A stretch of DNA of 23,211 nucleotides, from positions 1 through 23,211 of the IMG/VR virus record IMGVR_UViG_3300043823_000519; one strand, written 5' to 3'. How positions within the stretch are numbered: position 1 is the first letter of the stretch; the number at the start of each line of letters is the position of its first letter. Origin of the DNA: a virus. The notes beneath the pieces are model-generated. The model saw nothing but the letters and a program-made list of their open reading frames with translations. It did no database searches and had not been told where the DNA came from. Of the stretch, positions 2,699 through 22,770 are shown piece by piece. The translations under genes and the position numbers were made by a program.

Positions 2699-2706
2699 TA
2701 TTTATT
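2699..2706 (-). promoter_or_regulatory. Candidate T4-type late promoter (AATAAATA)
   Basis: The - strand reads AATAAATA 26 bases before the ATG of the S74 fibre. It overlaps the stop codon (2702-2704) of the oxygenase gene. It is one mismatch from TATAAATA. The expected start of transcription, about 6 bases past the motif, would leave a short leader of about 20 bases. Confidence 0.5.
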
Positions 2707-3304
2707 CAAAGAAAACACAGTTAATTACCATTCTATATCTGGAATCTTTTGGGCATGATGCCGCATGTAATTGATTAGAATCGAAAATGACTGCTCTTCC
2801 TTTTTTTGGTGTTACTGAAAGCACTTTTTTAATTTGTCCGATTTTTGAACCATCAAATCTTTCATTATAAAATGCGGTATCACCATCTGCATCATTAACA
2901 TAATATAAGAGTGTTTTTTTTCCTATACTTGCCAATACCCCATTCTCAACCTCCATACCATCCGCATGAGGATATTGATTTTGTGGTCCAGGTTGTGATA
3001 TTAAAAGATTTGCTTTTATTCTATACATACCTTTAATATTTTTTCCTGTTGCTTTAACATATTCACCTAATAATGGTGTAATATATTGGAAGTTTGGACT
3101 CATAATCTCATTATCTGTTACAAAACGATGTCTCATCTGAATATGTTCTTGATACGGTTCATCAATTTGATACAAATCTTCTAATGATTTTGCACTCACA
3201 GAATAATCACCAAATGTCCAATTAAATTCGCTACCACTCAACAAATGATAAATTGAGTCCTGATATATCTCAGGAATAAAGTCATCAATCACAATAGGTT
3301 CCAT
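2702..3304 (-). CDS. 2OG-Fe(II) oxygenase embedded in the tail operon
   Basis: I take the ATG at 3304 (200 residues, beginning MEPIVIDDFIPE), because it lies one base after the stop of the upstream gene and has GGAAA nearby. An upstream in-frame ATG at 3346 would overlap that gene by 41 bases. Iron ligands of the family are visible: His113 and Asp115 (YPHADG) and His180 (QLHAAS). Arg189 or Arg191 (SRYRMVI) is suited to hold the 2-oxoglutarate carboxylate. GDTAFYNERF at 141-150 fills the place of the usual GGxTxF turn. The family hydroxylates protein side chains or small molecules using O2 and 2-oxoglutarate. The substrate is unknown; the position between baseplate and fibre genes suggests a virion protein (inference). 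Confidence 0.85.
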   Translation of the reverse strand: MEPIVIDDFIPEIYQDSIYHLLSGSEFNWTFGDYSVSAKSLEDLYQIDEPYQEHIQMRHRFVTDNEIMSPNFQYITPLLGEYVKATGKNIKGMYRIKANLLISQPGPQNQYPHADGMEVENGVLASIGKKTLLYYVNDADGDTAFYNERFDGSKIGQIKKVLSVTPKKGRAVIFDSNQLHAASCPKDSRYRMVINCVFFE

Positions 3305-3305
3305 T

Positions 3306-3521
3306 TTATTTTTCCAATAATTTAAGCAATAAATTTTTAATTTCACTCACATCATTTTTCAATGTATCAATTTGTTGTTGTACATTTTTATGTTGTTCTT
3401 TTTGAATACGTAGCATATTTAATTTTGCTACGTATTCATTTCTAACAGCCTTATCGGTATTACTTAGACCCATACTAGTGGTGTCTCTAACAAATGGGGT
3501 GTCTGTTACTTTAACAAGCAT
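3306..3521 (-). CDS. 71-residue coiled-coil protein between tail genes
   Basis: The start chosen is the ATG at 3521, one base after the stop of the DUF4815 gene; an in-frame ATG at 3581 would overlap that gene by 59 bases. The N-terminal 30 residues (VTDTPFVRDTTSMGL at 5-19, then SNTDK) resemble short conserved proteins I know beside large structural genes in marine T4-like phages. Residues 31-71 form a charged helix with heptad spacing: Ile51, Val58 and Leu65 in one position and Leu54, Ile61 and Leu68 in the other. This predicts a two- or three-stranded coiled coil. No enzyme motif is present. I infer a small virion or assembly protein that oligomerises; its function is unknown. Confidence 0.7.
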   Translation of the reverse strand: MLVKVTDTPFVRDTTSMGLSNTDKAVRNEYVAKLNMLRIQKEQHKNVQQQIDTLKNDVSEIKNLLLKLLEK

Positions 3522-3522
3522 A

Positions 3523-6500
3523 TTATAAACCAGTTCCTGATGGTAATGCGATAGCACGAATATCTGATAAGAAAGGCACATTAGTTCTATCGTTTGTTTT
3601 CATTACAACTTTGATCTGGAATTGAATAAAATTGTTATATGTTTTACCATTAGTGCTTGTATAAGAAATCTTATTGGCAGCTTGATTAGATGTACCTGGA
3701 GCACATTCAAACTCAATCACATCATTTCTATCTGTTGAGTATGTTCCTACTTCAGTAGTCTGTGTCATTAGTTGCCATGATTGGGCATCAAATTGAGAAC
3801 TATCAGCAGAGCTTAGAATCTTATAATATACAAGAACATCAGTTCCGATTGGTTTATATGCTGAATAATAAACACGCATATCGCCAGAGTCATTACCTGG
3901 TACCATGATTACTTTCTTAGTAAAATACTTAGCATAACCATTTCCACCAAATGGTGATGTTTCGCCTTGTACTGTTACTACAGCATTAGTATTTCCGCTA
4001 CGAGTAGATGGATCACTAATTGTAATTGTTGGTGTGGTGTGATATCCAGAACCAGGATATGTTGTATAGATTGATGTAATGCCACCAGTGACTGTGTTCT
4101 GTTTAAATCCAAATAATGGATAGTCAGAACCTACATCGGGTGCAGAACATGTAATCGATAAAGTATTTGCATTGTATCCTGTACCTGTGTTTGCAACATT
4201 AATGATGTTACCATCAATACCCATGTTGTTAATATGATATACAATGGAATACAGTGAAACACCATCATCAGAAATAACTGGTGACACATTTGTATCTGTT
4301 GTTGCTAAACTTGCATATAATTGGAAAGAATTTGCAGAATTTTTAAATAATGCACGTTCACCTTGTCCGTCATTTAGATAAACATTATCTTGTGTTGGTG
4401 TACCATATTTACCTGGATTGATAGGTTGTTGAGAAGTTACTGCACCTGTACTTGCTAATGTTGTTTGATATGAATAATTAATTGATGTTCCTGTAGGAAT
4501 AAAATCTGTTGTAGAAACATTGATTGCATCTACAAGTTGATTTTGTGCATACAATGAATATACGTTGGGAACACTATTAGCACTGATACTATGTTGAATA
4601 TCGTGACGACCAAGTTTTCTATATGGTAATCCTTTTGGTACAACAAATTGAATATTTGATCCACCAGGATTAGAGAACACACATTGATCAATTTCAAACA
4701 TTAGATTTTTAGTTTGATCAGCAGTCCATGTAATTGAATTTTGTGATTCAAACAATGAACCTGTATATGGAGTTTGTCCAATCTTAGTTGGTACTCCACC
4801 GGATGCATAGTTGATTGCTATTTCATTTTGTTGTGCGTACCATAAGTTATAATCTGCTGAACTAGATTGAACAACAAATGCATATAAAACACCTGGTTGA
4901 ATATAAACAGGAGCATCAAATGTGAACACAGTAGCAGTAGCAGTATTGCTTGTAGAAGGGTTTGTAGACGTATTAACAAACTGTGATGATACTGTTGCTG
5001 TAGAGTGTGCTAATGCTTGTCCTGTTGGATATCCATTCAGTGTATTCAATAGATAAACAGAAACAGGTACGTTAGGTGTATTATTATTTGTAAATGGTGC
5101 AAAGAATAAATTCAATGAATTTAAGAATACACCATTTGGATAATTTGTTTTATCCACCATGAATGTTTGAGCAATCGGATCAATCTTAGGTGCTTGTGAT
5201 ACAAGATTATATCCAGTCTGTGCTGTTTGATTGAATGTAACAGACGTAGAATCAACTGTAGAAGCGAAATCTGGTAATTGTTGTGTTGATTGTAATCCTG
5301 TTGCCCAGAATGTTCCTTCTGCCCATGTTGTTGCAGATGATGGCATATTCATGATACTTCTATTATCAACTCTGAATACACGTTGACCTGTCCAGAACAT
5401 AGAACCTGGAACGTTGAATATAGCAACAAATTCACCATTCTCATTGGTTGATAAACTAGGTATTGATGAACCAACACTAATTGCATCAGCAACAGAAGTT
5501 GCAGTACCATTTATGGTATACTGAGATTGAATTTGTCCATATTGATTATTGTATCCAGTAGAAATATTAACTGGAGTATCAAGCGTTACTGTTTTAGTTA
5601 CACCATTGTATCCTGTAATATTTGCAGTAAATGTTCCAGTTGTAGATAATGTAATTGTTTGATTCTGTAAACTAATTACCTCTTGATTAATCTGTGCATT
5701 GTATTGAGCAACAGCGGCCTGATAACGAGAAACGTTACCACAGTCACCGTCGCCACTAAATGGTGGTGGAGGTGGATAGTATACTGAACCATAATTGTAT
5801 GTGTAAGTATATGTAGATTTAATAGTAATACTAGAACCAATATAGATGTTGTTTGCAGTAGATGCATTACCATCTAGTTGTAGTGATGTTGCACCAATAT
5901 AATAATTACCACCTTGAGGCATATTATAAATTGTACCTGATGTAGTAGTAATATTTGGTGGCGCTAAAGTATCCCATACAATATTACCACTTGGATCGGA
6001 TACTGTCAATGCAAATGCTGGACCAGTATATGCTCCACCTCCAGTATTAGTTAATGCATAATTCAAATAGTAAGTTGTGCCAGCAGTTAAACTTAATGTT
6101 ATTGTTTGTGGGTCTGTAGTTAAACTAGAAATAGTAGAACCCACTTGAGTTCCGGTGCTTCCTGATGTTGTAGAGAAGTATATACCTGAAGTAGAAATAT
6201 CACCACCAGCATATGTTACTGTGTATGTGCCAGTTATAGTAGGTGTGAATGAATATGATGATGAATTCCAAGATGATCCATCACTATTATCTCCCCATGC
6301 ACCATAGTTATTTAAGAAATCTGACCATCCATTTACGATAGCAGATTTATAATTTGTTACTGCTGGTAATGAAGTGTTTGCTGAATTTTTAAATCCACCA
6401 CCAATATTTGAAACAATACCGCTAGTATGTAAATCTGTGATTGTTTTACCATTTAACGATACTGTTCCACTTGCAGTTTGTCCTATGTAGTTTCCATTGA

Positions 6501-9500
6501 TATCAAAAAATGCGTTTTGGAATGTAGCATTTGTTGTAACAGTAGAAGGTAAACCGATCATAGTTGCAATATATAAGCGCCAGTTAGATGTACCTGGGTA
6601 GTTATATGCAGAAACAACACGAGCAATTGGGAAGAAATCTGTTACAGAAGGTTCATAGTAACCTACAATATCATCTTGATTGAATGTTCCTGTAACATTA
6701 GTTAATTCAATTGTATTAGGAGATGTCATCCATTGATCAACTAATGTACCATCAAAGAAACAATGTATAGGAGAGTTGACTAATAGATTTTTTGCTCTAA
6801 CAATAATTTCTTGGGGTCTGATATTAGGAACAACTGCATCGTTGTTTACATAACCATTAGATACTGACAATGCAGGTGATGATGCAGATGATAATTGAGC
6901 AGAATTTAATCCTTGTGTTTGAGCAACATATGTTTGAGCAGGTTGTGCTATGAATGATGCTGTAGGATTAGATGTAGAATTAACACCAGAGGTTGCTGTA
7001 ATTGTTGTTTGTGATGAAGTTAACAGTTGTTGTGTACCAGGCAATGAAGCAAAATCTCCAGCATTAGTCAAGTTAACGCCTCCGGCTTGTTGACTAAACT
7101 GTAGTGTTGGATCATTGATTGTTATCATTGGAACTTCAACAGTGTTTACCCAATTATCCATTGGTGGGTTGAGACTTAAGAAACCTTGCTCAACTACAAC
7201 GCTAAATGGATTAACACTTACTGTATTACTTGCTAAAACTTGTGAGATTAGATTAGCAGTAGTGTATGGTAAAGTATAAATGTTAGTTTGAGTTCCGGAA
7301 ATACTATTAACTGCAAATGTATTAAAGTTGTTTGCTGTTCCTAATGAATTTAAAACTTGTGGATTCTGTAATTGGAAGTTTGTAACAGAATTTAAAGGTC
7401 CCATTTGTTTTTTGCGAATGTTAATATTAGCCGCATAGTTAGGCTGTGTGCTATCAGCAGTTGCAAACGAACTGAAATCGTCAACAAGAATACCATAATT
7501 AGGTCTTGTGATACCATTATTATCAGGTACTTGAGTTGCCGCGGCACTTGCTTCTAGTTGATTTAGTGCGGCATAATATTCCATATTGTCAACTTGAGTT
7601 TGTAAATCTGTGATATCAGATTTTCTCCAGTTTTTGTGTGCAATCTTATTAATCGATAGATTGGCAGGAACACCGTCAGGATTTTCACCTGGAACATATG
7701 CTGTATATGGATCATGAATCAAATTCGCAATAACTAAAGATCCACTTGGTGCATCAGGCAGAATAGGTTTCAAATCTGGTGCACCAGATATTACTTTGAA
7801 TTGACTATCTTTTGTTAAAACAAGTAAATCTTGTCTTCCTAAATAATATGCATAAGAATCAATAATACCTACATTATTTTGTGGTAATAAAATACCACCA
7901 TTGTATGGTGAAGATGTTGGATTGTTATTGTATTCCCATGCACCAGATGTTGTCGCATTTTGTTTTGCTGGTCTAAAGTCCATACAATCTCTTAATGCGT
8001 ATGTTGTTCCATCTTTTGCTGTATATGATGGAATTGATGCATATTCTTCATTGATGTAAGATTGTATATTGAAATATCCATCACCACCAGAGTGTGAATA
8101 ATGATCAAAACACACTAAAATATTACCAATTGGTTTAATTGCACCTGGTATTAAAGTGATTGTTGCAAATTCATATGAGTTATCACGTTGACCATTATCA
8201 AAAGAGAATGATCCTGTAATGTCTTTGAATCCTGAAAGAGAGGAACTGAATGGTGTTGTTGTTGTACTTCCAGTATCAATAATCTTTGTGATTCGTTTTA
8301 CATCATTAACATACAAACTGATTGCTGATGTACCAATTACATTATTTTGAATGTATGCTTGACCTGTTGTTAAATCAACATAATTGTTTGATGTAACTGT
8401 TGTAAATGATGCTTGTGCTGGACAATATGATGTATTACCAGTTACTAGAGTTTTATATTTCAATACAGAACTAGCACCTTCACCATTAGGAATGAATACT
8501 TGTGCATAAACATCAACAGGATTTGTATCAGTGCCATATACACTAGAACTAAACATTACTGTTGTGTTTGTTGATAATGTTGCAGTATTGCCTGAATATG
8601 TGAAGTCTTGAATTTGTCCTGTTGTTGTATCGACAATAGTGAATAATTGTTTAAATTGTTCTCCATATAGTCCAGTATTCAATGGACCAACAAACGAGAT
8701 ACCTGGCTGACTAATGCTCAATGTTAAAGTTTTGCTTGTATTATTCCATCTTTGATTTCTGAATAACATAGTTGAATAAAATGATGTATTCGCAACATTT
8801 GCAACATATGGATTGCCTATTGGGAATATCATTTCAGAAGTACCTGAACTTTGTAGTACAGTAGGACTTGTTTGTGTTGGGCCAGATTTGCCTCCACCAA
8901 CTACACTGATATTTGCATTTGCGGTTAGTGATGTGTATCCGTTTTGTGTTACAATACAATCAATATCATTGATTGCAAATAAAAGACTGAATGTATCACT
9001 TGAACTTGGTGTTACAATGAATGGTGTTTCAACAGTAAATGTTTTTGTGCTACCAGAAACTGTGTATCCAGTAATCGCAAGGGCATTTCCTACATCACCA
9101 CCAGATGTCATCGACAATGTTACACCGACATATGCACCATTAATGTTTGAAAATGTGCCTGAAGTATCATTTACAACAAGAGTTGTTGATGTAGCACTTG
9201 CTACTGTTCCTGATAATGTGTTTGTTGCAATATCACATACGTATGCATTGAAAATATATGTTTGTGTATTTGCACCTTGTGATGTGACGTACTTTAATCC
9301 TCTAAGTCTTGCTGATCCAACTAAGGTTGAAGTATAATTTGTTTGACCTGATAGTCCAATATTAGCAGACGCAACACAATGTAAATCGACATACGGTTGT
9401 GATGTTGCATCAAATATACCACTTAATGTATCAACCACAAAATAATTACCATAATCAACAAAAATGTTGTTTGTTTGTATTGTGTTTGTTGTTCTTGCTC

Positions 9501-10617
9501 TAGGTATGTTTAACAGTTGTTGTGATTGATTTTCGATACGATAACCACGAACATATGCAACACCTTTTCCAATTGATAAATCATATGAATTTGGATCACT
9601 TCCTGAACCTAGATCCATATTAGTATTCATAGCACCATTGGCTGATGAAATTAATTTGAAATCTTGAACAATGTAGTCGCCATTTGTTTCATAATCACGT
9701 TTGGCAAAATAATCATCAATTACTGAGTATACTGTACCATTTACTTGCTTAATCAATTGACCATTTTCAATACGAACTAACTCAATAAAACTATCATCGC
9801 TACCTAAAGTCAATGGTAATGCTGTAAGTGTTAATGAAATTTCATAACGATCAGCACCTGGTGCTTGATAGTTTGATGCACCTACTGCCGGATCAAGTAA
9901 AGATGTATCTGTAGTATAATCAACAATAGATTCGTTAATTTGTAAACCAATTCTATATGTTGGTGTAGCATCATACTTGTCTAGAATAATAGTTTGTGGA
10001 GCAACATTTACAAAATTACCAATAGAATATTTTGTATATGTGCCATCTGGATTAGGTGATGATGATTGTGACCAACCATTGACGATATAATATACACCTT
10101 GTGCTACAGATGCAACAGATGAAAGGCCTGTACATGTTGTATTACCTGATAACGTTGTGCCAATTGTAGTTGCAACAAAGTTTGTACCTTTAGCAAAAAT
10201 TTGTGTACCGTCTGTAAATTGTACACCAGAACTATATGTGATAATTAGTGTGGGTGGATCGCCTGTACCTGCCGCATTAGTTGCTTCAGCAGTGGCAACT
10301 ACTTTAGCTATGATTGTTCCTGTAACATCTGTAATTGTTTGATTTAAGAAGTTTGCGGCTTTAATAGATGAACCATTATATGCGCCGTTAAGTTTTAAAT
10401 AATAGCAGTTTAAGTTTGTTGTAACTTGTCCACCAGTGACTGGTGTATTTTGTTGAAAAATATTAGATGCAAACTTAGAAATTTGGTCTTGCAGTATTGT
10501 TTGGGATTGTGTAAGCTCTCTACCCTGTACAGAGTAACCTGGTTTAAAGAGTATTCTATGAAAATTCTTTGTTGGATCAAAGTCATCATAGTAAGGGTAT
10601 TGATTAAAATTTTCCAT
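3523..10617 (-). CDS. Giant DUF4815-type baseplate/appendage structural protein (2364 residues)
   Basis: The start at 10617 has a strong AAAGGA site overlapping the gp8 stop. The N-terminus (PYYDDFDPTKNFHRILFKPG, then YSVQGRELTQSQTILQDQI at about 28-46) is the signature of DUF4815, found in marine T4-like phages downstream of gp8. The middle is a long series of Thr/Ser/Asn/Gly-rich beta domains. About 1457-1542 looks like a beta-sandwich binding domain (TYTVTYAGG, LTAGTTYYLNYAL). About 1613-1620 is a proline run (YYPPPPPF) followed by a helix-prone stretch. Two GxGY modules occur at about 2139-2217. The last 140 residues (from YAKYFTKKVIMVPG to IRAIALPSG) match the usual end of this family. 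T4 gp9, gp10, gp11 and gp12 are not in this window. The protein may take an outer-baseplate or fibre role instead (inference). Confidence 0.85.
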   Translation of the reverse strand: MENFNQYPYYDDFDPTKNFHRILFKPGYSVQGRELTQSQTILQDQISKFASNIFQQNTPVTGGQVTTNLNCYYLKLNGAYNGSSIKAANFLNQTITDVTGTIIAKVVATAEATNAAGTGDPPTLIITYSSGVQFTDGTQIFAKGTNFVATTIGTTLSGNTTCTGLSSVASVAQGVYYIVNGWSQSSSPNPDGTYTKYSIGNFVNVAPQTIILDKYDATPTYRIGLQINESIVDYTTDTSLLDPAVGASNYQAPGADRYEISLTLTALPLTLGSDDSFIELVRIENGQLIKQVNGTVYSVIDDYFAKRDYETNGDYIVQDFKLISSANGAMNTNMDLGSGSDPNSYDLSIGKGVAYVRGYRIENQSQQLLNIPRARTTNTIQTNNIFVDYGNYFVVDTLSGIFDATSQPYVDLHCVASANIGLSGQTNYTSTLVGSARLRGLKYVTSQGANTQTYIFNAYVCDIATNTLSGTVASATSTTLVVNDTSGTFSNINGAYVGVTLSMTSGGDVGNALAITGYTVSGSTKTFTVETPFIVTPSSSDTFSLLFAINDIDCIVTQNGYTSLTANANISVVGGGKSGPTQTSPTVLQSSGTSEMIFPIGNPYVANVANTSFYSTMLFRNQRWNNTSKTLTLSISQPGISFVGPLNTGLYGEQFKQLFTIVDTTTGQIQDFTYSGNTATLSTNTTVMFSSSVYGTDTNPVDVYAQVFIPNGEGASSVLKYKTLVTGNTSYCPAQASFTTVTSNNYVDLTTGQAYIQNNVIGTSAISLYVNDVKRITKIIDTGSTTTTPFSSSLSGFKDITGSFSFDNGQRDNSYEFATITLIPGAIKPIGNILVCFDHYSHSGGDGYFNIQSYINEEYASIPSYTAKDGTTYALRDCMDFRPAKQNATTSGAWEYNNNPTSSPYNGGILLPQNNVGIIDSYAYYLGRQDLLVLTKDSQFKVISGAPDLKPILPDAPSGSLVIANLIHDPYTAYVPGENPDGVPANLSINKIAHKNWRKSDITDLQTQVDNMEYYAALNQLEASAAATQVPDNNGITRPNYGILVDDFSSFATADSTQPNYAANINIRKKQMGPLNSVTNFQLQNPQVLNSLGTANNFNTFAVNSISGTQTNIYTLPYTTANLISQVLASNTVSVNPFSVVVEQGFLSLNPPMDNWVNTVEVPMITINDPTLQFSQQAGGVNLTNAGDFASLPGTQQLLTSSQTTITATSGVNSTSNPTASFIAQPAQTYVAQTQGLNSAQLSSASSPALSVSNGYVNNDAVVPNIRPQEIIVRAKNLLVNSPIHCFFDGTLVDQWMTSPNTIELTNVTGTFNQDDIVGYYEPSVTDFFPIARVVSAYNYPGTSNWRLYIATMIGLPSTVTTNATFQNAFFDINGNYIGQTASGTVSLNGKTITDLHTSGIVSNIGGGFKNSANTSLPAVTNYKSAIVNGWSDFLNNYGAWGDNSDGSSWNSSSYSFTPTITGTYTVTYAGGDISTSGIYFSTTSGSTGTQVGSTISSLTTDPQTITLSLTAGTTYYLNYALTNTGGGAYTGPAFALTVSDPSGNIVWDTLAPPNITTTSGTIYNMPQGGNYYIGATSLQLDGNASTANNIYIGSSITIKSTYTYTYNYGSVYYPPPPPFSGDGDCGNVSRYQAAVAQYNAQINQEVISLQNQTITLSTTGTFTANITGYNGVTKTVTLDTPVNISTGYNNQYGQIQSQYTINGTATSVADAISVGSSIPSLSTNENGEFVAIFNVPGSMFWTGQRVFRVDNRSIMNMPSSATTWAEGTFWATGLQSTQQLPDFASTVDSTSVTFNQTAQTGYNLVSQAPKIDPIAQTFMVDKTNYPNGVFLNSLNLFFAPFTNNNTPNVPVSVYLLNTLNGYPTGQALAHSTATVSSQFVNTSTNPSTSNTATATVFTFDAPVYIQPGVLYAFVVQSSSADYNLWYAQQNEIAINYASGGVPTKIGQTPYTGSLFESQNSITWTADQTKNLMFEIDQCVFSNPGGSNIQFVVPKGLPYRKLGRHDIQHSISANSVPNVYSLYAQNQLVDAINVSTTDFIPTGTSINYSYQTTLASTGAVTSQQPINPGKYGTPTQDNVYLNDGQGERALFKNSANSFQLYASLATTDTNVSPVISDDGVSLYSIVYHINNMGIDGNIINVANTGTGYNANTLSITCSAPDVGSDYPLFGFKQNTVTGGITSIYTTYPGSGYHTTPTITISDPSTRSGNTNAVVTVQGETSPFGGNGYAKYFTKKVIMVPGNDSGDMRVYYSAYKPIGTDVLVYYKILSSADSSQFDAQSWQLMTQTTEVGTYSTDRNDVIEFECAPGTSNQAANKISYTSTNGKTYNNFIQFQIKVVMKTNDRTNVPFLSDIRAIALPSGTGL

Positions 10618-14946: not shown

Positions 14947-17013
14947 TTATTGTTTTGCAACTAGATTAACAACAACAGATGTTGAATCATTTAAGTCTAT
15001 TGTCAAAATTTGATTTTGTTGTGTTTCAATAATTGAGGTTTTTGGTGTAGCAACAACTAAAAGACTCTCAAGCGTATTATCGATTGCATATGGTGCAAAA
15101 TTTGTTAATGTAATTATAACATTAGTATAATCAATAGTTCCTGCATTTGTATTTAATATGTTTTTTGTGCTTGCAGTATTATAGTATGTTCTCAATGCAC
15201 CTGTTTGTGATTCAATAATCGCTTGGGCTGCCGCCAATTGACCTGTTGAATCATTCGTTGCATTTGTAATTTGAACAACTGCTTGTGTATATCCATAACC
15301 AGCATTAGTTACTGTAATATTCGTGATGTAACCATTAACGATAGTTGCTTCTGCTGTTGCACCAGTACCATCACCTAAAATAGTAACTGTGGGTGCTACC
15401 GTGTAACTGAAACCAGGATTCAATACTTGAATTTCTGCAATACCACCAGTTGTAGATGGAATTTCTTCTAAGAAGACACCATCTACAATATTGTTATTGA
15501 CAAGATATTGCATTGACGGATAACTATAGATACCGCTTGTCAATACTCCTTTTTGTAAAGGTACTGCATAATTTAATGTATAATTCAAAGATGTAGTCAA
15601 ATTTGGATATATTTTCTTAGCAATTTGAATCGAATTTTCGTTTGCAATAATAGATTGGTCAACATTTTGAATAGTTGAAATGAGACTAGCAATATTAAAT
15701 GTAGAATTAAATGTGTTTAGTGTACTATTTAATTGATTTACGATTGCAGATTGAATATTAGATTGGAGTGTATATGGATCCAAAATAGTTTTCTTAGGAT
15801 CATACAAAACATTAGCATTTACACGAATGTATGTGTAATCTGGTTCAACAATAACAGGTTCTACAGTCATAATGCTAACCGGGTTCAAGATGTTATCAAT
15901 AATATCTTGTTTTTCTGTTGTTGTCAATGAATATCCACCTGAAGGCTTGATGCTCACAAATACTTGTCCATATACTGGTGGATTGTTTTCTTGTCCACCC
16001 CATACATTAACAGCATCAAACTGATATCCTAATGTATTTTGATTTAGAATAGTGATGTAATCATCTTTTGTTACCGCACGATTTTGTGCCGAATATGATT
16101 TTGGTGCAGTAAACTTAATTGAATCGATTGTTTCTTTATCGCCTCCAGCAGATGCTGGAACTACAGGAAATATTGTTGTACCAACTGGAGTGATTCCTGT
16201 AATTGAATCCATCAAAACAAAATTATTAGCACCAGTAGATGCACTACCATCAGTTACAATGTAACTTAAATTAACAATGTTTCCATCATTAAGTTGTTGA
16301 CCTAAAATACCATCACCAAAATAGATTTCATAAGTTCCTGTTAAACTCTCTTGTATAAAGTATACTTGACTGGAACCATTCAGTCCAAGAAAATCTGTTG
16401 CTTGAGTGAAAACTTGATATGATGTATTTGATAGTGATTGTTGTATTTGAACAGACAACGAAGTGATATCTACATTAGAATCTGGAATTTCGAATGTATA
16501 TGATGGGTTAGTTGTACTATCAACAGTATATGATTGTGTAGAAACAATACCTTGTTTTAATAAAATTTCATTGAATGTTGCAACACCATTTGCTGAATTT
16601 ACTGTGTTACCTTGTATTGTTACAAAGTTGTAGTTAACTCCGTTGATTGCTTCAGACATAAAGTTTGTATATGCTGGTATAGTAACCGGTCCGCTAGTAC
16701 CAGAAACTGTCATATTAATTTTTGCAGTTGGTGCTATAGAAGATTTGGGTATGTAATTTAGTAATTTTGCATGTGAAACAACAGATGAACGTTGTGTTGC
16801 AGAATCTAAAAACATTTCATTAGCAACCATATTAAGATAAAATGCATTATATTGCGTATTATATGCAAAAATATCTAATAGTGTATTTAATGTTGAACCT
16901 TGAAAATTATAGTCTTTAAACGTATCTTGACCCTGCAAGTACGTAATAAAGTTACTTTTTATATTATTGAAGTCTAAGTCTGTGACTTGTATGTTAGAGT
17001 TGGCGCCGGCCAT
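14947..17013 (-). CDS. 6: Baseplate wedge protein gp6 (gpJ-like)
   Basis: The protein has 688 residues, near the 660 of T4 gp6. It opens with VTDLDFNNIKSNFITYLQGQ and a GSTLNTLLDIFAYNTQYNAF segment typical of gp6 and phage P2 gpJ-type proteins. It continues with NMVANEMFLDSATQRSSVVS and LLNYIPKSS. A YEIYFGDGILGQQLNDGN segment at about 225-245 and AVTKDDYITIL are further family marks. gp6 dimers form the continuous ring of the inner baseplate. A GxGY module is inserted at about 520-585. It starts 1 base into the stop of gp25 with an AGAGG ribosome site. The first codons (GCC GGC GCC) are unusually GC-rich for this genome. Identification is firm. Confidence 0.9.
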   Translation of the reverse strand: MAGANSNIQVTDLDFNNIKSNFITYLQGQDTFKDYNFQGSTLNTLLDIFAYNTQYNAFYLNMVANEMFLDSATQRSSVVSHAKLLNYIPKSSIAPTAKINMTVSGTSGPVTIPAYTNFMSEAINGVNYNFVTIQGNTVNSANGVATFNEILLKQGIVSTQSYTVDSTTNPSYTFEIPDSNVDITSLSVQIQQSLSNTSYQVFTQATDFLGLNGSSQVYFIQESLTGTYEIYFGDGILGQQLNDGNIVNLSYIVTDGSASTGANNFVLMDSITGITPVGTTIFPVVPASAGGDKETIDSIKFTAPKSYSAQNRAVTKDDYITILNQNTLGYQFDAVNVWGGQENNPPVYGQVFVSIKPSGGYSLTTTEKQDIIDNILNPVSIMTVEPVIVEPDYTYIRVNANVLYDPKKTILDPYTLQSNIQSAIVNQLNSTLNTFNSTFNIASLISTIQNVDQSIIANENSIQIAKKIYPNLTTSLNYTLNYAVPLQKGVLTSGIYSYPSMQYLVNNNIVDGVFLEEIPSTTGGIAEIQVLNPGFSYTVAPTVTILGDGTGATAEATIVNGYITNITVTNAGYGYTQAVVQITNATNDSTGQLAAAQAIIESQTGALRTYYNTASTKNILNTNAGTIDYTNVIITLTNFAPYAIDNTLESLLVVATPKTSIIETQQNQILTIDLNDSTSVVVNLVAKQ

Positions 17014-17405
17014 TATCGTGTCCTCTCTAGTATCAGAGTTACATCGGTAGGTGTTGTATTGTTACCAATGTATATTGTTAATTTTACAAAAAAAGAATTT
17101 TGATCAGGATAAGCAGTAACATCGATACTATCAACGATTGCTCTCGGCTCAAAATTTTCTATAGCAAGAGCAATTTCATCAGAAATTACACTAGAATTTA
17201 AATCGTCAACATTTTCAAATAAAATACCAGAAAGATTTGTACCAACTAATGGTTGAAATGGTCTCTCATAATATTCTGTAAGTAACAATTGTTTGACTGA
17301 GCGAATTACTGCCTGATCATCATAACTCATGGCGACATCATTCGTCACTGGCTGACGAGTGAACATCATGTCTAAGTCTGAATATATTTTTTGTAGTGTT
17401 CCCAT
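17013..17405 (-). CDS. 25: Baseplate wedge protein gp25
   Basis: The protein has 130 residues, against 132 in T4. It opens with LQKIYSDLDMMF, aligning with the NKLYSDIDPEM of T4 gp25. It then has VIRSVKQLLLT, YERPFQPLVGTNLSGILFE and the diagnostic ENFEPRA with Glu86-Pro87-Arg88. The EPR motif is shared by gp25, phage P2 gpW and TssE of type VI secretion, and in the T4 baseplate it holds the inner core bundle with gp6 and gp53. gp25 also nucleates the sheath at the baseplate. It overlaps gp6 by one base (TAATG), so translation is probably coupled. The start is preceded by AAAAGG, but at a long distance of about 14 bases. Confidence 0.95.
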   Translation of the reverse strand: MGTLQKIYSDLDMMFTRQPVTNDVAMSYDDQAVIRSVKQLLLTEYYERPFQPLVGTNLSGILFENVDDLNSSVISDEIALAIENFEPRAIVDSIDVTAYPDQNSFFVKLTIYIGNNTTPTDVTLILERTR

Positions 17406-17461
17406 CTTTTATTTATTACCTTTTAAGCCAAAAGTAAAATGACTTTTTTAGAACCCGGATA

Positions 17462-17486
17462 CCCCGCCAAATTTTTCATGGCGGAA
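17462..17486 (-). promoter_or_regulatory. RNA hairpin between gp5C and gp25
   Basis: On the transcribed (-) strand CCGCCA pairs with UGGCGG across a 9-base loop (UGAAAAAUU), at 17464-17484. Two G-U pairs can extend the stem to 8 pairs (17462-17486). There is no run of U after it. It may stabilise or be cut in the message between hub and wedge genes, attenuate expression, or be a factor-dependent terminator. The structure is seen; the role is inferred. Confidence 0.55.
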
Positions 17487-17491
17487 ACCCA

Positions 17492-17505
17492 AAATTTCGA
17501 AATTT
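17492..17505. repeat. Perfect 14-bp palindrome AAATTTCGAAATTT
   Basis: The 14 bases read the same on both strands, centred on TTCGAA. It lies 3 bases past the stop of the gp5 spike gene and next to the hairpin. It could be a protein-binding site or part of a larger RNA fold, or be incidental in AT-rich DNA. Confidence 0.5.
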
Positions 17506-17508
17506 CCA

Positions 17509-18261
17509 TTATTCTTGTTGATTTGGTGTTCCTGTATCTCCACCTTGTGGATCTGGATGCGTATGACCATCATAAATCTGTCTATCATCAGCCATAGCAC
17601 GAACTGAATCTATTACATTTGCATATGATTTAATATCTTGATTTGCTACAATATTTAAGTTAGCAGAAATATTGCTTTGAGTCAAAATATTACCTGTATT
17701 TTTAAAATCGCCCACTTGATTGATTGGACCGACAAAATTGAAGTCACTTGCCGTTGCTGTAAATGAACCATCTACAGCCATATTCATATTACCACCAACT
17801 TTTAAGTTAACATCTCCATTGAACTGTAATTGTGCATTACCTTCTACTAAAACTTTACATGCACCTTGTATTGAGATTGTTGCTTTTCCTTGAATTTGGA
17901 TATAATCATCTTTCATAATAATTTGATAATTATCATTGACAATTTTCTCCACCATTGAACCATCAGGATGAATTTCGTAGAATGTACCTGTTCTGTGTCC
18001 TATTGATACACGTTCAGCACCTGGTGTATCATCAAATTCCATTAAATGACCAGATTCAGTTTGTTTTGCATTATTGTATGGATATTGTGGTGCATATGCA
18101 GTTTTTGGTTCACTAAACTCATTATTCGGATTAGCAACCGCTTCAATTTGATCAGCTTTAGCGTTATATGTGTTTTTATTAGCAGACACTTCCTCTAATG
18201 CAGATTTTTGTGCTTGTAATTTAGTAATCTGTGCTTGTAATAGTGTAATCAAATCTGACAT
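17509..18261 (-). CDS. Baseplate spike: gp5 C-terminal beta-helix with HxH tip, as its own gene
   Basis: The protein has 250 residues. Residues 1-28 (SDLITLLQAQITKLQAQKSA and on) form a coiled coil. Residues about 72-115 (GHLMEFDDTPGAERVSIGHR, TGTFYEIHPDGSMVEKI) match the entry to the gp5/VgrG triple-stranded beta-helix. This is followed by short strands (IQIQGKATISIQ, VLVEGNAQLQF, VNLKVGGNMNM) characteristic of the helix. The end reads DGHTHPDPQGGDTG. His233 and His235 form the HxH motif that binds iron at the apex of phage P2 gpV and phi92 gp138 spikes. In T4 the equivalent helix is released from gp5 by proteolysis and capped by the PAAR protein gp5.4. It starts 1 base after the gp5 hub stop, in another frame, with AGG upstream. 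Confidence 0.85.
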   Translation of the reverse strand: MSDLITLLQAQITKLQAQKSALEEVSANKNTYNAKADQIEAVANPNNEFSEPKTAYAPQYPYNNAKQTESGHLMEFDDTPGAERVSIGHRTGTFYEIHPDGSMVEKIVNDNYQIIMKDDYIQIQGKATISIQGACKVLVEGNAQLQFNGDVNLKVGGNMNMAVDGSFTATASDFNFVGPINQVGDFKNTGNILTQSNISANLNIVANQDIKSYANVIDSVRAMADDRQIYDGHTHPDPQGGDTGTPNQQE

Positions 18262-18262
18262 A

Positions 18263-19546
18263 TTATTTACCTAACGTGCTTACGAGTGATTGTAATTGTG
18301 AAATCTGAGAACCAAGAGAGCCAATTGCAGTATCTACTTGATTCAATGGTATATTCAATGGTATATCGCTTAAGTTAATATTCGATAAACTGCTACTTAT
18401 TTCTGGTGAAAGATTTGATAGTTGACTTGTTATACTACTCAATCCACCAGGAATAATACTTCCTAACTGCCCTGTAATACTACTTAATGAACCAGAAATA
18501 TCTACTTTAGGAATTCCTCCATCCAAATTCACTGGAAATTGAGTAGATATATTTCCACCAGCAAGACTACTTAATTTTGATGAAATTTGATCTGCGATAC
18601 CACTTACTTGTGATGATAAATCCGAAATTCCTGCTGATATTGATGCTTGTGCTTGTGCTTGTGCATCTGCTAGTTTTCCTTGTGCTTCAGCAAATGCTGA
18701 TTGAAATTGTGATTGTGCTTGTGATAAATTTGATTTAAATTCATCTGAATTTAATAAACTAGATGCTTGTTGTACAGAACTAGAAATCGCAGATTTTGCT
18801 TGTGACAACGCATCTGTTGCGGCTGACGTTACGTTACTTGAAATATCACTGACATTGATACTTGATGCTAATGATGATGGATCAGGAAGTAATGATTTAA
18901 TATCTGGTATTGAACCTGTAATAGCACTTAATGCACCTTCACCTGCGGCCGCAATCGTATCTGCTAAATTTTTTGCATCTGGTCCTTGAATATTTTCTAC
19001 TGTATTTTCTAATCTATCTACAATTTCTTGTGGTTGATTATTAGGATCATTAATCGCTAAAGTGGGTAAAGTAGGAAAACCAAACACAAAAGGAAATCGT
19101 TGTGCGGGTTGATTTGTTACTGTAGCACCAGAACCATCTGTAGGCATTTCTACACTTGCTGGTGTAGCAGGTGCTTCAGCCAATTCATCTGCTGTACGCA
19201 GGTCTCTAAAACCAACTTGTGGTGGTATGTCAGGTGGGTCTTGAGGTATACCTGGTATCACACCAAAATATGCTGGTGATTGACATGATGCACCATCTAA
19301 GAAAAAACCTACTACCCATTGTCCTTCTTTAGGTACTTGAGATGTATCCGCATTATTGAGTGGAACAACAGGATGTGCCCATGGTAGATCATCAGAAGGA
19401 ATAAGTTGTAAATTATCTGTATGTAGACCAAAGATACGAGCCTTCACACGACCGAGATATAATGGGTCGATTCTTTGTTCAACAACACCTATCCACCAGT
19501 AGAAACCGGACATTCCTAAGAAATTTGGTTTACTCATTACTGTCAT
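18263..19546 (-). CDS. 5: Baseplate hub gp5, N-terminal OB-fold part; no lysozyme domain
   Basis: The protein has 427 residues. The start at 19546 overlaps the gp27 stop (ATGA) and has AAAGG nine bases upstream; a second Met at 19537 is possible. Residues about 15-115 match the T4 gp5 OB-fold: YWWIGVVEQRIDPLYLGRVK, FGLHTD, DDLPWAHPVVPL, EGQWVVGFFLDG, YFGVIPG. T4 gp5 then has a lysozyme domain. Here there is a Pro-rich linker (about 118-195), followed by a long Ala/Ser/Gln/Leu-rich region (about 200-427) with helical repeats (DAQAQAQASIS, GISDLSSQVSGIADQISSKL). No lysozyme Glu-Asp-Thr triad is recognisable. It probably trimerises on gp27 and holds the spike through coiled coils. Cell-wall digestion must come from elsewhere or not be needed. 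Confidence 0.85.
   Translation of the reverse strand: MTVMSKPNFLGMSGFYWWIGVVEQRIDPLYLGRVKARIFGLHTDNLQLIPSDDLPWAHPVVPLNNADTSQVPKEGQWVVGFFLDGASCQSPAYFGVIPGIPQDPPDIPPQVGFRDLRTADELAEAPATPASVEMPTDGSGATVTNQPAQRFPFVFGFPTLPTLAINDPNNQPQEIVDRLENTVENIQGPDAKNLADTIAAAGEGALSAITGSIPDIKSLLPDPSSLASSINVSDISSNVTSAATDALSQAKSAISSSVQQASSLLNSDEFKSNLSQAQSQFQSAFAEAQGKLADAQAQAQASISAGISDLSSQVSGIADQISSKLSSLAGGNISTQFPVNLDGGIPKVDISGSLSSITGQLGSIIPGGLSSITSQLSNLSPEISSSLSNINLSDIPLNIPLNQVDTAIGSLGSQISQLQSLVSTLGK
18645..18664. repeat. Short tandem repeat (GCTTGT)x3 in gp5 hub
   Basis: Three copies of the hexamer GCTTGT plus GC lie in phase with the coding frame and encode Ala-Gln pairs (the QAQAQA stretch). A slippage-prone hexamer would change helix length without breaking the frame. 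Confidence 0.6.
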
Positions 19547-20946
19547 TGTGTCTTGCCTTTACTTGAGTTTTTCCAAATTGTGCTTGTATTATCAATAGTA
19601 CCAATTTGATTTGGTACGCTTTCTTTAGTTATTTCAATTTCTGTTGTATATCCGTTGCTATTAGGATTAATAAATTGTTTTACTGCTGTGACAAGATAAT
19701 TTCCAGAATAAAATGAATCAAGTGTTTTTCTTACTTCATCGTTTACTCTAAATTCTGTTGAAGGTAAATTAAACGTGATTACCATACCAACTTTAACTTC
19801 TGGATCACCAGGAATACTCAATCTTACTCTATGGTAATTAGCAAGTGCTAGTTGTGCTGTTCTATATGGAATATAAGTTTCAGCATAGATGTCTTGCGCT
19901 ACTGAACCGACTTTATTTTTAATATAATCAATTAATTGTTGACCGGAATTGACAATACTCATCTTAACTACAGCCTCAGATGTTTTATATATTTCATCAC
20001 CGAATCTGTTTTGATAATTGTTGATAATAGGATTACCATTTAAATTTTGTGCTTTATTTGCATAATCAGTATTACCACCAATATAATTAAAATCTGTAAT
20101 TTCATATCGTTGAAGTAGTGGGTCTATTCCTACAAAACGATTAGCAAATATACCTTGATTAATACCACTCAATACATCAAATGAATCAAGTATAGTATAC
20201 GACAATACATCTGTTAATACTTTGTCTGATAATGATTCTTGTTTTTTTCCAATATTTTGTGGTCGAACATTATATGTGTTATATGGTGTATTTGCAAATA
20301 ATGTTTGTAGAGACAAAAAATGGAAGCCGTCTTTATTTTGAAAGAACAGCATATCTGCACCAGGATTTCCTGATGCCGATCTAGCATATGTTGATAACCA
20401 ATTTATTGCTTCAAATGGTTTAAAATTAGGAATAATAAAATCATATGTTCCGTAAGTGTCTTCTATAGTGTAATTGCTACTATCGATTCCTAAATACTCA
20501 CTACAAATATTATCAATAATTTCAGATATTTTTTTCTTAGGATATGATTTTTGAATTTTATATTGTTCATTTAATATCATTTCTTCAGAGCAAAAATACA
20601 GCGTATATACTTCAGATTGCATATTATTGTCTAATGTTCTGTTTCCTATTTTATATACTCTAAAAATCGCATCGATATTATTAATATTGGATTTTGTTTT
20701 ACCAAAAATGATTCTAATAAACTCATTACCATTAAATCTTAATTTGTTTAGATATCCTGATGCATCACTCATACTTAAATGTCCTGATGTAGTGCTACTG
20801 AAAATGTCTTCATAGTAACACAATTCTATTGTTGATGCTTTGATATCGAAGGTTTGAGCTGGAGTTAATAGTGTAAGTGATTTAAGCGCATAGTCCTGAG
20901 GAAAAATTATACCAGGAGTTGCTGGTGTTGGTGTTGCATTTGCCAT
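19543..20946 (-). CDS. 27: Baseplate central hub protein gp27
   Basis: The protein has 467 residues (T4 gp27 has 391). Features fitting gp27 and its P2 gpD/VgrG gp27-like relatives are an early beta part (KASTIELCYYEDIFSSTTSG at about 36-55), LRFNGNEFIRIIFG, and VYTLYFCSEEMILNEQYKIQ followed by SYPKKKISEIIDNI at about 130-145. Next come FIIPNFKPFEAINWLSTYAR and LFFQNKDGFHFLSLQTL. The C-terminal part has VRLSIPGDPEVKVGMVITF and GNYLVTAVKQFINPN, as in the second tube-like domain. A gp27 trimer joins the tail tube to the gp5 spike. It lies directly before gp5 with a 4-base overlap, giving hub partners coupled translation. Confidence 0.85.
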   Translation of the reverse strand: MANATPTPATPGIIFPQDYALKSLTLLTPAQTFDIKASTIELCYYEDIFSSTTSGHLSMSDASGYLNKLRFNGNEFIRIIFGKTKSNINNIDAIFRVYKIGNRTLDNNMQSEVYTLYFCSEEMILNEQYKIQKSYPKKKISEIIDNICSEYLGIDSSNYTIEDTYGTYDFIIPNFKPFEAINWLSTYARSASGNPGADMLFFQNKDGFHFLSLQTLFANTPYNTYNVRPQNIGKKQESLSDKVLTDVLSYTILDSFDVLSGINQGIFANRFVGIDPLLQRYEITDFNYIGGNTDYANKAQNLNGNPIINNYQNRFGDEIYKTSEAVVKMSIVNSGQQLIDYIKNKVGSVAQDIYAETYIPYRTAQLALANYHRVRLSIPGDPEVKVGMVITFNLPSTEFRVNDEVRKTLDSFYSGNYLVTAVKQFINPNSNGYTTEIEITKESVPNQIGTIDNTSTIWKNSSKGKTQ

Positions 20947-20947
20947 A

Positions 20948-21577
20948 TTACGTACTCATCAAATATGCTAATTGTTTCTCCAAATCAGGTGCATATACAG
21001 CATTGATTATATTAATAGTTCTTTTAGCTTCATTCAAATTATTTTCATTATCATAAATTGATACTGCTTGAGTTGCAATTGTTTTAGTTACTGTATTTCC
21101 ACTAGGTAATGTTGCTGTTGTTGTTCCAGTAATAGTATTTGCATATTGTTGTTGTGATATGTTGACAGTATTTGTTGTAGTGTTTGATGTGAAACTATCA
21201 ACAGTAGTAATTGTCATTTCATAATGATCAATAGTAGTTTGTGTATATGCTAATGCTGTTTGATTATTTGCTTCAGCGGCTTCAGCATATTTGTCATTAA
21301 TATAATTATTGAAATCATTGTATGATAGAGGTAAATCCCACATTGGATCTATTGTATTGTTACCTAACAATACAATCCAATAACGATATGCATCACTATA
21401 ATATTTTGATGCGACTATATCTAGTCTATCTCCGTCTTGATAATCGTACTGATAATATACTAATGGATTATTTTGTAAACTTGGTAGTAATGTAACTCTC
21501 CTCATAATATTGGTTAAGATAACTTGACCATCGCTACTATCGACTAAAATTTTTGGAAAAGAATCGAAATATAACAT
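20948..21577 (-). CDS. 53: Baseplate wedge protein gp53 (LysM-like)
   Basis: The protein has 209 residues; T4 gp53 has 196. It opens LYFDSFPKILVDSSDGQVIL. It then has the motif YDYQDGDRLDIVASKYYSDA followed by YRYWIVLLGNN, about residues 45-75, which is the LysM-like core typical of gp53. MWDLPLSYNDFNNYINDKY follows. The last 100 residues are a Thr/Ser/Asn-rich insertion, then NNLNEAKRTINIINAVYAPD (matching the family end) and a short helix. In T4, gp53 clamps adjacent wedges around the hub. It overlaps gp48 by one base and has GAGG as ribosome site. Confidence 0.9.
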   Translation of the reverse strand: MLYFDSFPKILVDSSDGQVILTNIMRRVTLLPSLQNNPLVYYQYDYQDGDRLDIVASKYYSDAYRYWIVLLGNNTIDPMWDLPLSYNDFNNYINDKYAEAAEANNQTALAYTQTTIDHYEMTITTVDSFTSNTTTNTVNISQQQYANTITGTTTATLPSGNTVTKTIATQAVSIYDNENNLNEAKRTINIINAVYAPDLEKQLAYLMST

Positions 21578-22770
21578 TATCTAACCTCGTTATTAGTAAA
21601 TCTTGTTCTATCAATAATTTCCATTTCAGAAAACTGTAGTGTTAACTTAGTTTGAACAGGAGCACCATCTGCATGAGCAACCCAACCATTCGGTGCAAAA
21701 TCTATCTGAACATTCTTCAATACACAATCACCTACTTTATATAAAAATAAGTTTTCATCGCTGTTAATACCATCACTTCCACCAACAGTTTTTACACCAT
21801 CAATAAATGAACCAATAGCACTACCTACATTACTTCCACCTGCAAGAGCACTTGCTAGTCCAGAAACACCACCTGCTTTTTTACTAATGAAAGATACATT
21901 GAATATTGATGGTGGAATAAGGAACATGCCACCGGAAAACGAACCTGTATCGATTTGAGGTAAAGAGTGAAACTTAAATGTGTCAATGATATTCTTTACG
22001 TTCTGTGCTTCTGTTTTTGTTCTAGGTGTAAAAGTAAATTCTAATTGAAATGATCTGATTCCAATACCTTTATATACCATTTGTAACATTGGATTGATTG
22101 AATATCCAGCACCTTTGAGAAGAATATCTGAATATTTTCCGAATTCCGAATTCTTACTTAAAGCAGTAGCAAGTGCTAATGCATTTTTACTTGTTGATGT
22201 TTTGAAAGCAGAGTCAGATGTTTTTCCTAATATAGTGTTTCTATTCGAGTTGTTATAATTTTTTGATAATTCTTCCCATGTACCACCTGCAGCCAAATAT
22301 TTACCTATGAGTGATTGTACACTGACTGCATCATATGAATTGTCGTATGCCATGTTAATACTATCTGGCATATACAATTGAATAACTTTATCTGTTTTTT
22401 TCGTTTGTGCTTGTAAATTTTGAACACCGAGCTTATTTTGAGCATAACTTGTTGCGGCCTGTAAGGAAGGAAGAATTGTTCCTGTTGTTCCTGTTGTTGC
22501 TAGTGTTTCTCCAGTATTGGTTGTAACATTTGTATTTTGACCACCTTGTGTTGCGTAATCAGCAGGTATCACTTGACGCATTGTGAATTTAACATAATGA
22601 TGAATAACAGAATCACCTAAATTAGATGGATAATTTAAAATCGTACCACTACCTTTAGCACTACCAAACAATGATGCGAGAGGTCCTTGTGCTAACCCAC
22701 CTATACCACCAGGAATAGATACACCACCAATAGAAGTTGGAATTTGTGAGTTGATGTTGAAACTAGCCAT
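21577..22770 (-). CDS. 48: Baseplate tail-tube cap protein gp48
   Basis: The protein has 397 residues (T4 gp48 has 364). Marks of the family are VIQLYMPDSINMAYDNSYDA at about 150-169, YSINPMLQMVYKGIGIRSFQ followed by LEFTFTPRTKTEAQNVKNII at about 248-266, and DTFKFHSLPQ. The final part has VGDCVLKNVQIDFAPNGW and TKLTLQFSEMEIIDRTRF. These are shared by tube-initiator proteins gp48 and gp54, which resemble the tail tube protein gp19. The N-terminus has an IGGVSIPGGIGG glycine stretch. gp48 sits on the hub and starts tube polymerisation. It leads the leftward gene run behind an exact TATAAATA. Its own ribosome site is weak. gp54 is a possible alternative name; gp48 fits length and context better. 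Confidence 0.8.
   Translation of the reverse strand: MASFNINSQIPTSIGGVSIPGGIGGLAQGPLASLFGSAKGSGTILNYPSNLGDSVIHHYVKFTMRQVIPADYATQGGQNTNVTTNTGETLATTGTTGTILPSLQAATSYAQNKLGVQNLQAQTKKTDKVIQLYMPDSINMAYDNSYDAVSVQSLIGKYLAAGGTWEELSKNYNNSNRNTILGKTSDSAFKTSTSKNALALATALSKNSEFGKYSDILLKGAGYSINPMLQMVYKGIGIRSFQLEFTFTPRTKTEAQNVKNIIDTFKFHSLPQIDTGSFSGGMFLIPPSIFNVSFISKKAGGVSGLASALAGGSNVGSAIGSFIDGVKTVGGSDGINSDENLFLYKVGDCVLKNVQIDFAPNGWVAHADGAPVQTKLTLQFSEMEIIDRTRFTNNEVR

Follow-up and report, generated by a model that had tools for sequence, protein, structure and literature searches.

The textbook example of a puncturing device is T4 gp5. The spikes of P2 (gpV), phi92 and R2-pyocin carry an OB-fold within the spike chain itself, and the central spike proteins of phiKZ and OBP are encoded as separate genes. 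Phage T4 cleaves gp5, and both parts stay in the particle (PMC7650644, PMC7600766). The purpose of this cleavage is unsettled; release of the spike in the periplasm is one possibility listed (PMC7600766). PAAR caps and six-histidine iron tips are described as alternatives for sharpening spikes of this kind (PMC10715212).

The gp5-like locus analyzed here lies in a 23,211-nucleotide stretch of viral DNA, referred to as the window. We propose that the needle of this uncultured T4-superfamily phage is made from two co-translated genes, and not as one protein that is later cut, and that it combines a stalk, a self-tip and an exchangeable cassette; we give this reading a probability of about 0.74. 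The domains, the split, the retention of the linker, the tip motif and the exchange were demonstrated by sequence comparison, and the split, shared with dozens of relatives, is a conserved variant of a well-known device. No paper describing a split gp5 in T4-like phages was found among the titles, abstracts and selected passages searched, and the consulted parts of the paper on phage Melnitz do not mention gp5 (PMC9004378). Separate spikes and lysozyme-less gp5 proteins are already present in public phage records, although they are not described as such in the literature found.

Locus organization and gp5-type domains

The baseplate block of the window follows a T4-like order, with these features:

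21577-22770, minus strand: tail-tube cap
20948-21577, minus strand: gp53-like gene
19543..20946, minus strand: gp27-like hub (PHROG_350, E 4e-77), expected seat of the OB domain
18263..19546, minus strand: hub gene, 427 aa, with OB-fold, pre-spike linker and Ala/Ser/Gln-rich helical extension; conserved in the clade
19232..19546, minus strand: OB-fold domain, hub aa 1-105, homologue of the T4 gp5 OB domain (which seats in gp27)
18986..19225, minus strand: pre-spike linker as in T4, kept at hub aa 108-187 (profile HMM from the linkers of 39 fused gp5 proteins without lysozyme, E 5e-14)
18266..18985, minus strand: Ala/Ser/Gln-rich extension, hub aa 188-427, predicted helical with low confidence
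18266..18349, minus strand: heptad-periodic helix at the hub C-terminus, aa 400-427, proposed docking coil (periodicity in 6 homologues)
18262..18265, minus strand: junction, with the hub stop (TAA) and the single base that separates it from the spike ATG (TAAtATG)
17509..18261, minus strand: spike gene, 250 aa
18133..18258, minus strand: helices at the N-terminus of the spike, aa 2-43, proposed to dock with the hub C-terminus (AlphaFold2; conserved in the clade)
17758..18126, minus strand: gp5-type trimerisation/beta-helix core, spike aa 46-168 (T4 gp5 homology; Foldseek)
17512..17574, minus strand: putative self-tip, HxH motif (H233, H235), gpV-apex-like; both His invariant in 9 aligned homologues
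17406..17508, no strand: gap between spike and gp25, with no gp5.4/PAAR gene present
17013..17405, minus strand: gp25 wedge protein (Pfam PF04965), where the exchangeable cassette ends on the downstream side; near here split and fused loci become homologous again at the DNA level
14947-17013, minus strand: gp6

An earlier reading, made from the sequence alone, had described two open reading frames of 427 and 250 aa, one base apart and in different frames; the coordinates were recovered exactly, the single base being position 18262. It had also taken the pair for a gp5 split into hub and spike genes, and the homology searches agree. Residues 14-106 of the hub match the OB-fold of T4 gp5 (residues 7-109; phmmer against PDB 1PDL, E 1.5e-9), PHROG_430 (E 1e-30) and Pfam Gp5_OB (PF06714, E 3e-6), and residues 48-168 of the spike match T4 gp5 residues 375-495 (PDB, E 5e-23; PHROG_430, E 1e-47). 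A Foldseek search with the spike model also returned gp5 proteins as top matches, which adds little beyond the sequence. The locus thus has the gp5-type OB-fold (in the hub) and the gp5-type trimerisation/beta-helix (in a separate spike gene) of the T4 gp5 family, and lacks a lysozyme between OB-fold and spike, a single precursor chain and a PAAR-capped tip.

The reported absence of a lysozyme held up: Pfam and PHROG family searches detected neither a lysozyme nor any other peptidoglycan hydrolase in the window proteins searched, including the middle region, and no hydrolase fold was found in hub residues 188-427. A search of the window, a 23-kb fragment, for PF00182 found none. In two relatives of type A, the two-gene split of the window clade (G001, G002), a GH19-like domain occurs in an ORF of 517-570 aa on the opposite strand, adjoining a gp26-like hub gene; its position suggests that the product is a virion protein, and the corresponding place would fall beyond the end of the window. 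Searches of the relatives for GH24 and M15 gave nothing above cut-off. The ORFs with the GH19-like domain (L182, 5462-7015; L183, 4587-6299) are candidates for the missing tail hydrolase.

Other ORFs of the window have features of their own. The gp6 homologue contains an extra stretch at about residues 520-610 that matches a gp8-family PHROG (phrog_438), and the hub of Synechococcus phage S-BM3 carries a Gly-rich repeat region with repeats resembling this stretch. A 2364-aa protein with DUF4815 (3523-10617) strongly matches PHROG_358, of unknown function, and an ORF among the tail genes (2702-3346) has similarity to 2OG-Fe(II) oxygenase as well as to a PHROG annotated as DNA endonuclease V.

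The position of the gene break was assessed from fused relatives that lack the lysozyme. In these proteins a conserved linker, GF.DPRT..L..AP...YP...EPTT.RLARN....T.I..R....V.TA, comes after the OB-fold and leads directly into the start of the spike, W.EP..Y...YPYN, and the T4 cleavage region ARSLS/AMAATVAK (S351/A352) aligns, roughly, inside this linker. A profile built from 39 fused relatives covers 79 of its 90 positions in the window hub (residues 108-187, E 5e-14) and also matches nearly all hubs of the window clade, which indicates that the hub has kept the linker and that the helical part, residues 188-427, was added after it. The region aligned with S351/A352 sits about 255 residues before the end of the hub. 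By this alignment, the break between the genes does not coincide with the site of T4 proteolysis, as had been claimed, and is located downstream of it, at the boundary between linker and beta-helix, with residues 188-427 as an addition at the break. Nor is the lysozyme replaced by Pro-rich and Ala/Ser/Gln-rich sequence: the slot between OB-fold and linker is, on the same comparison, empty in the hub, as it is in the fused lysozyme-less relatives.

Recurrence, exchange and tips of the split spike

The search for split gp5 in related phages that the sequence-only reading had proposed recovered 21 further IMG/VR contigs of the same spike clade in which both genes are visible, all split and none fused, together with separate clades and the cultured phages Melnitz and S-BM3. 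Six of the 21 contigs come from different metagenome assemblies with nearly identical, L009-type sequence. The loci surveyed were classified as fused with a hydrolase-like middle; fused with the linker only, a class without lysozyme that includes Pelagibacter phage Mosig and Acidovorax phage ACP17; split type A; split type B, also of two genes, whose hub has a different helical-looking domain (HVCD...SLPA..L..L...CL); and split-in-three type C, which encodes the OB-fold alone (99-101 aa), a helical domain of the type B kind as its own gene, and the spike. Three-gene loci were seen in L155, L157, L160-L166, L087, L093 and L123, where an OB-only gene, a helical gene of 290-405 aa and a spike gene stand between gp27 and the next ORF. 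As judged from sequence, lysozyme-less gp5 is common among the fused relatives and occurs also in cyanophages. Two apparent splits were rejected: the Aeromonas avDM12 "5_2" annotation is actually a fused gp5 of about 604 aa, and the Pelagibacter phage Mosig "OB protein" is a fused OB-linker-spike chain. The region of HTVC008M that was inspected contained no gp5. With respect to annotation, the label "baseplate hub subunit and tail lysozyme" is given to proteins without a detectable lysozyme, and separate spikes are labelled hypothetical, which calls for caution.

Type A formed one clade in the spike tree (99*), and types B and C joined each other (93). The gp27 tree, by contrast, scattered these type A phages, and a single clade was rejected (p-AU 1.5e-55). 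Because both trees were quick searches and the spike alignment has few columns, the exact number of origins is uncertain; the trees point to two or more (A and B/C), with Melnitz and S-BM3 apparently separate.

Comparison of split and fused loci revealed the extent of the exchanged segment. The split locus L146 and the fused locus L115 share 89% identity over 3.7 kb upstream and 86-92% downstream, and lose homology from about hub residue 115, at the end of the OB-fold, to near gp25. In three further pairs of a split and a fused locus, homology also stops at this OB boundary (L116/L118, upstream side only, as its contig ends; L111/L091; L003/L097). These DNA alignments demonstrate that the entire stretch that follows the OB domain behaves as an exchangeable cassette. 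At the C-terminus of the fused L115 spike (4956-6005), the sequence RIGDTCDTG...GTVFIGD resembles neither an HxH tip nor a blunt end and may be a PAAR-like cap within the spike itself.

Type A spikes end in an HxH motif and a Gly/Pro tail. H233 and H235 are invariant in 9 aligned close homologues, and the motif is present in 16 of the 18 type A spikes surveyed; the spikes of L145 and L151 lack it, and their ends consist of a Gly/Asn-rich repeat. The Pfam gpV Apex family (PF18946) matches the tips of a relative (L009, E 8e-12) and of a fused relative (L108, E 3e-8), and its search of the window spike's own tip gave no match. With reference to P2 gpV-type spikes, the locus has the C-terminal HxH apex and lacks the OB-fold in the same chain. 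No PAAR ORF was found in the window, a fragment, or in the 163-kb relative G001. Among 93 distinct loci with downstream sequence, 31 had HxH only, 27 PAAR only, 34 neither in reach and one both; this last, Melnitz, is a false positive whose HxH match sits in a C-terminal peptidase-like region. The near-complete exclusion (Fisher p 1.3e-5 over the 93 loci, not corrected for relatedness) suggests that self-tips and PAAR genes are interchangeable means to sharpen the same spike.

These patterns also bear on whether the split is functionally meaningless, that is, a neutral fission of the gene that became fixed and was then carried further by cassette recombination. Fission would be cheap, since mature T4 gp5 already consists of two chains (PMC7650644), and fused and split cassettes do interchange among close relatives. 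On the other hand, the split is found in two or more separate clades as well as in Melnitz and S-BM3, and most split spikes have a self-tip, which suggests a linked functional change, although the same link could come from shared cassette ancestry. We regard neutral fission as rather doubtful. Split phages beside near-identical fused ones offer a natural comparison for the roles of covalent linkage, of the lysozyme and of a PAAR cap.

Helical extension and hub-spike junction

The hub was modelled by AlphaFold2 with a mean pLDDT of 41, and a Foldseek search with this model returned nothing meaningful; the spike model reached an overall pLDDT of 64, with helices at residues 2-27 and 29-43 (block pLDDT about 50-85). 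Coiled-coil-prone ends had been suggested for both proteins. The hub C-terminus indeed has a strong 3.5-residue periodicity across 6 family members (p < 1/3000), but heptad periodicity of the spike N-terminus is weak (p 0.47 for the whole, p 0.02 in a chosen register). A coiled-coil junction between the two chains is plausible in the window clade, but spikes of the other split clade have short N-termini with no such helix by eye.

At these model confidences, the stalk and its docking are what we infer rather than what the models resolve. Three hub chains would seat via their OB domains in the gp27 trimer, and the helical extensions would form a trimeric stalk gripping a separately made spike trimer, with docking through the helices of the hub C-terminus and the spike N-terminus. 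The particle would reach directly the non-covalent hub/spike state that T4 obtains by cutting gp5 at S351/A352. The spike would pierce the outer membrane with its own metal-bound tip (the metal is predicted) instead of gp5.4 and could detach in the periplasm, and the peptidoglycan would be opened by another protein.

The extension might alternatively be ejected, as a plug or a segment like a tape measure, to act on the membrane. Its Ala-rich helices and weak matches to apolipoprotein-like models would fit such a role, as would the weak tape-measure PHROG matches of the corresponding helical protein in the other split clade; such matches are, however, typical of low-complexity helical sequence, and no lytic or membrane-active family scored above its cut-off for the extension. 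We consider a plug unlikely and retain the stalk as the preferred role.

The junction was compared across 30 distinct two-gene loci from the window clade, another clade and Melnitz. All three relative frames, all three stops (TAA, TAG and TGA) and gaps from -4 to +11 nt occur, and no conserved frame relation or slippery site was found across this set, which indicates that neither an assembly error nor a programmed frameshift accounts for the split; the sequence-only reading had likewise held that it is not a simple frameshift. The genes are nearly contiguous and 5 of the 30 junctions are in frame across a stop, as expected if frameshifting or stop readthrough yielded some hub-spike fusion, but the variety of junctions and a TAG in the spike frame of the window, 4 codons upstream of the spike ATG, make such a product very improbable. 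A sequencing or assembly error in an ordinary fused gp5 can be dismissed, because although close relatives of split phages with a fused gp5, which had been named as a sign of such an error, do exist (L115, L109), the split is seen again in 21 more contigs from this clade and in separate clades, and the fused relatives have another kind of spike and no hub extension, so that deleting one stop would not yield their gene.

Estimates of dN/dS were 0.27-0.51 for the helical region of the hub, 0.09-0.26 for the spike N-terminus and 0.04-0.14 for the spike core, low values which indicate that both flanks of the break are coding sequence under purifying selection. Each gene had been credited with its own ribosome site. 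An AGG resembling a Shine-Dalgarno motif does lie about 10-12 nt upstream of the window spike ATG, but no such motif is present at 6 of the 30 split loci, so coupled re-initiation at the stop/start is equally likely, and the spike may depend on such coupling for its translation.

Comparison with known systems

More broadly, the T4 superfamily might possess an exchangeable puncturing cassette of one to three genes, with the lysozyme of gp5 lost, in which a helical stalk was added between hub and spike, and a PAAR-capped spike was replaced by a self-tipped one, with wholly non-covalent attachment and the unit swapped behind a constant OB/gp27 seat; we hold this wider reading at even odds.

The locus shares with T4 gp5 and gp5.4 a homologous OB-fold, linker and beta-helix core, and the neighbors gp27, gp53, gp25 and gp6. 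T4 gp5 is one 575-aa chain with a lysozyme, cut at S351/A352 and capped by the PAAR protein gp5.4, whereas the window has two genes, no detected lysozyme, a helical extension after the linker, an HxH self-tip and no PAAR gene found. The self-tipped spikes of P2 gpV, phi92 and R2-pyocin have the same C-terminal HxH apex (PF18946 in relatives of the window), but the window has its OB-fold in another gene and a shaft of gp5 type.

Among cultured phages, Methylophilales phage Melnitz (MZ577095-98) also has a gp5 split into an OB protein of 346 aa and a spike protein of 667 aa, whose stop and start overlap (L046, 5001-8044). It differs in that its OB protein has a VanY-like peptidase (a Pfam match just under cut-off), the pre-spike linker lies on the spike side, and the spike has a C-terminal peptidase-like region by eye. 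Cyanophage S-BM3 (L171, 3492-6941) similarly encodes a separate spike-like ORF 6-7 nt after the hub ORF, but its hub is of 914 aa and the spike match, annotated hypothetical, is weak (E 7e-6). The gp5 proteins of cyanophages S-RIM8 and S-ShM2 combine an OB-fold, a long helical-looking middle and a spike, as here, but in a single fused chain; Pfam found no lysozyme in that of S-RIM8. In phiKZ and OBP the central spike (gp164 and gp146, respectively) is likewise its own protein, and the tip of OBP gp146 aligns with that of L009, although these are jumbo phages with distant baseplates.
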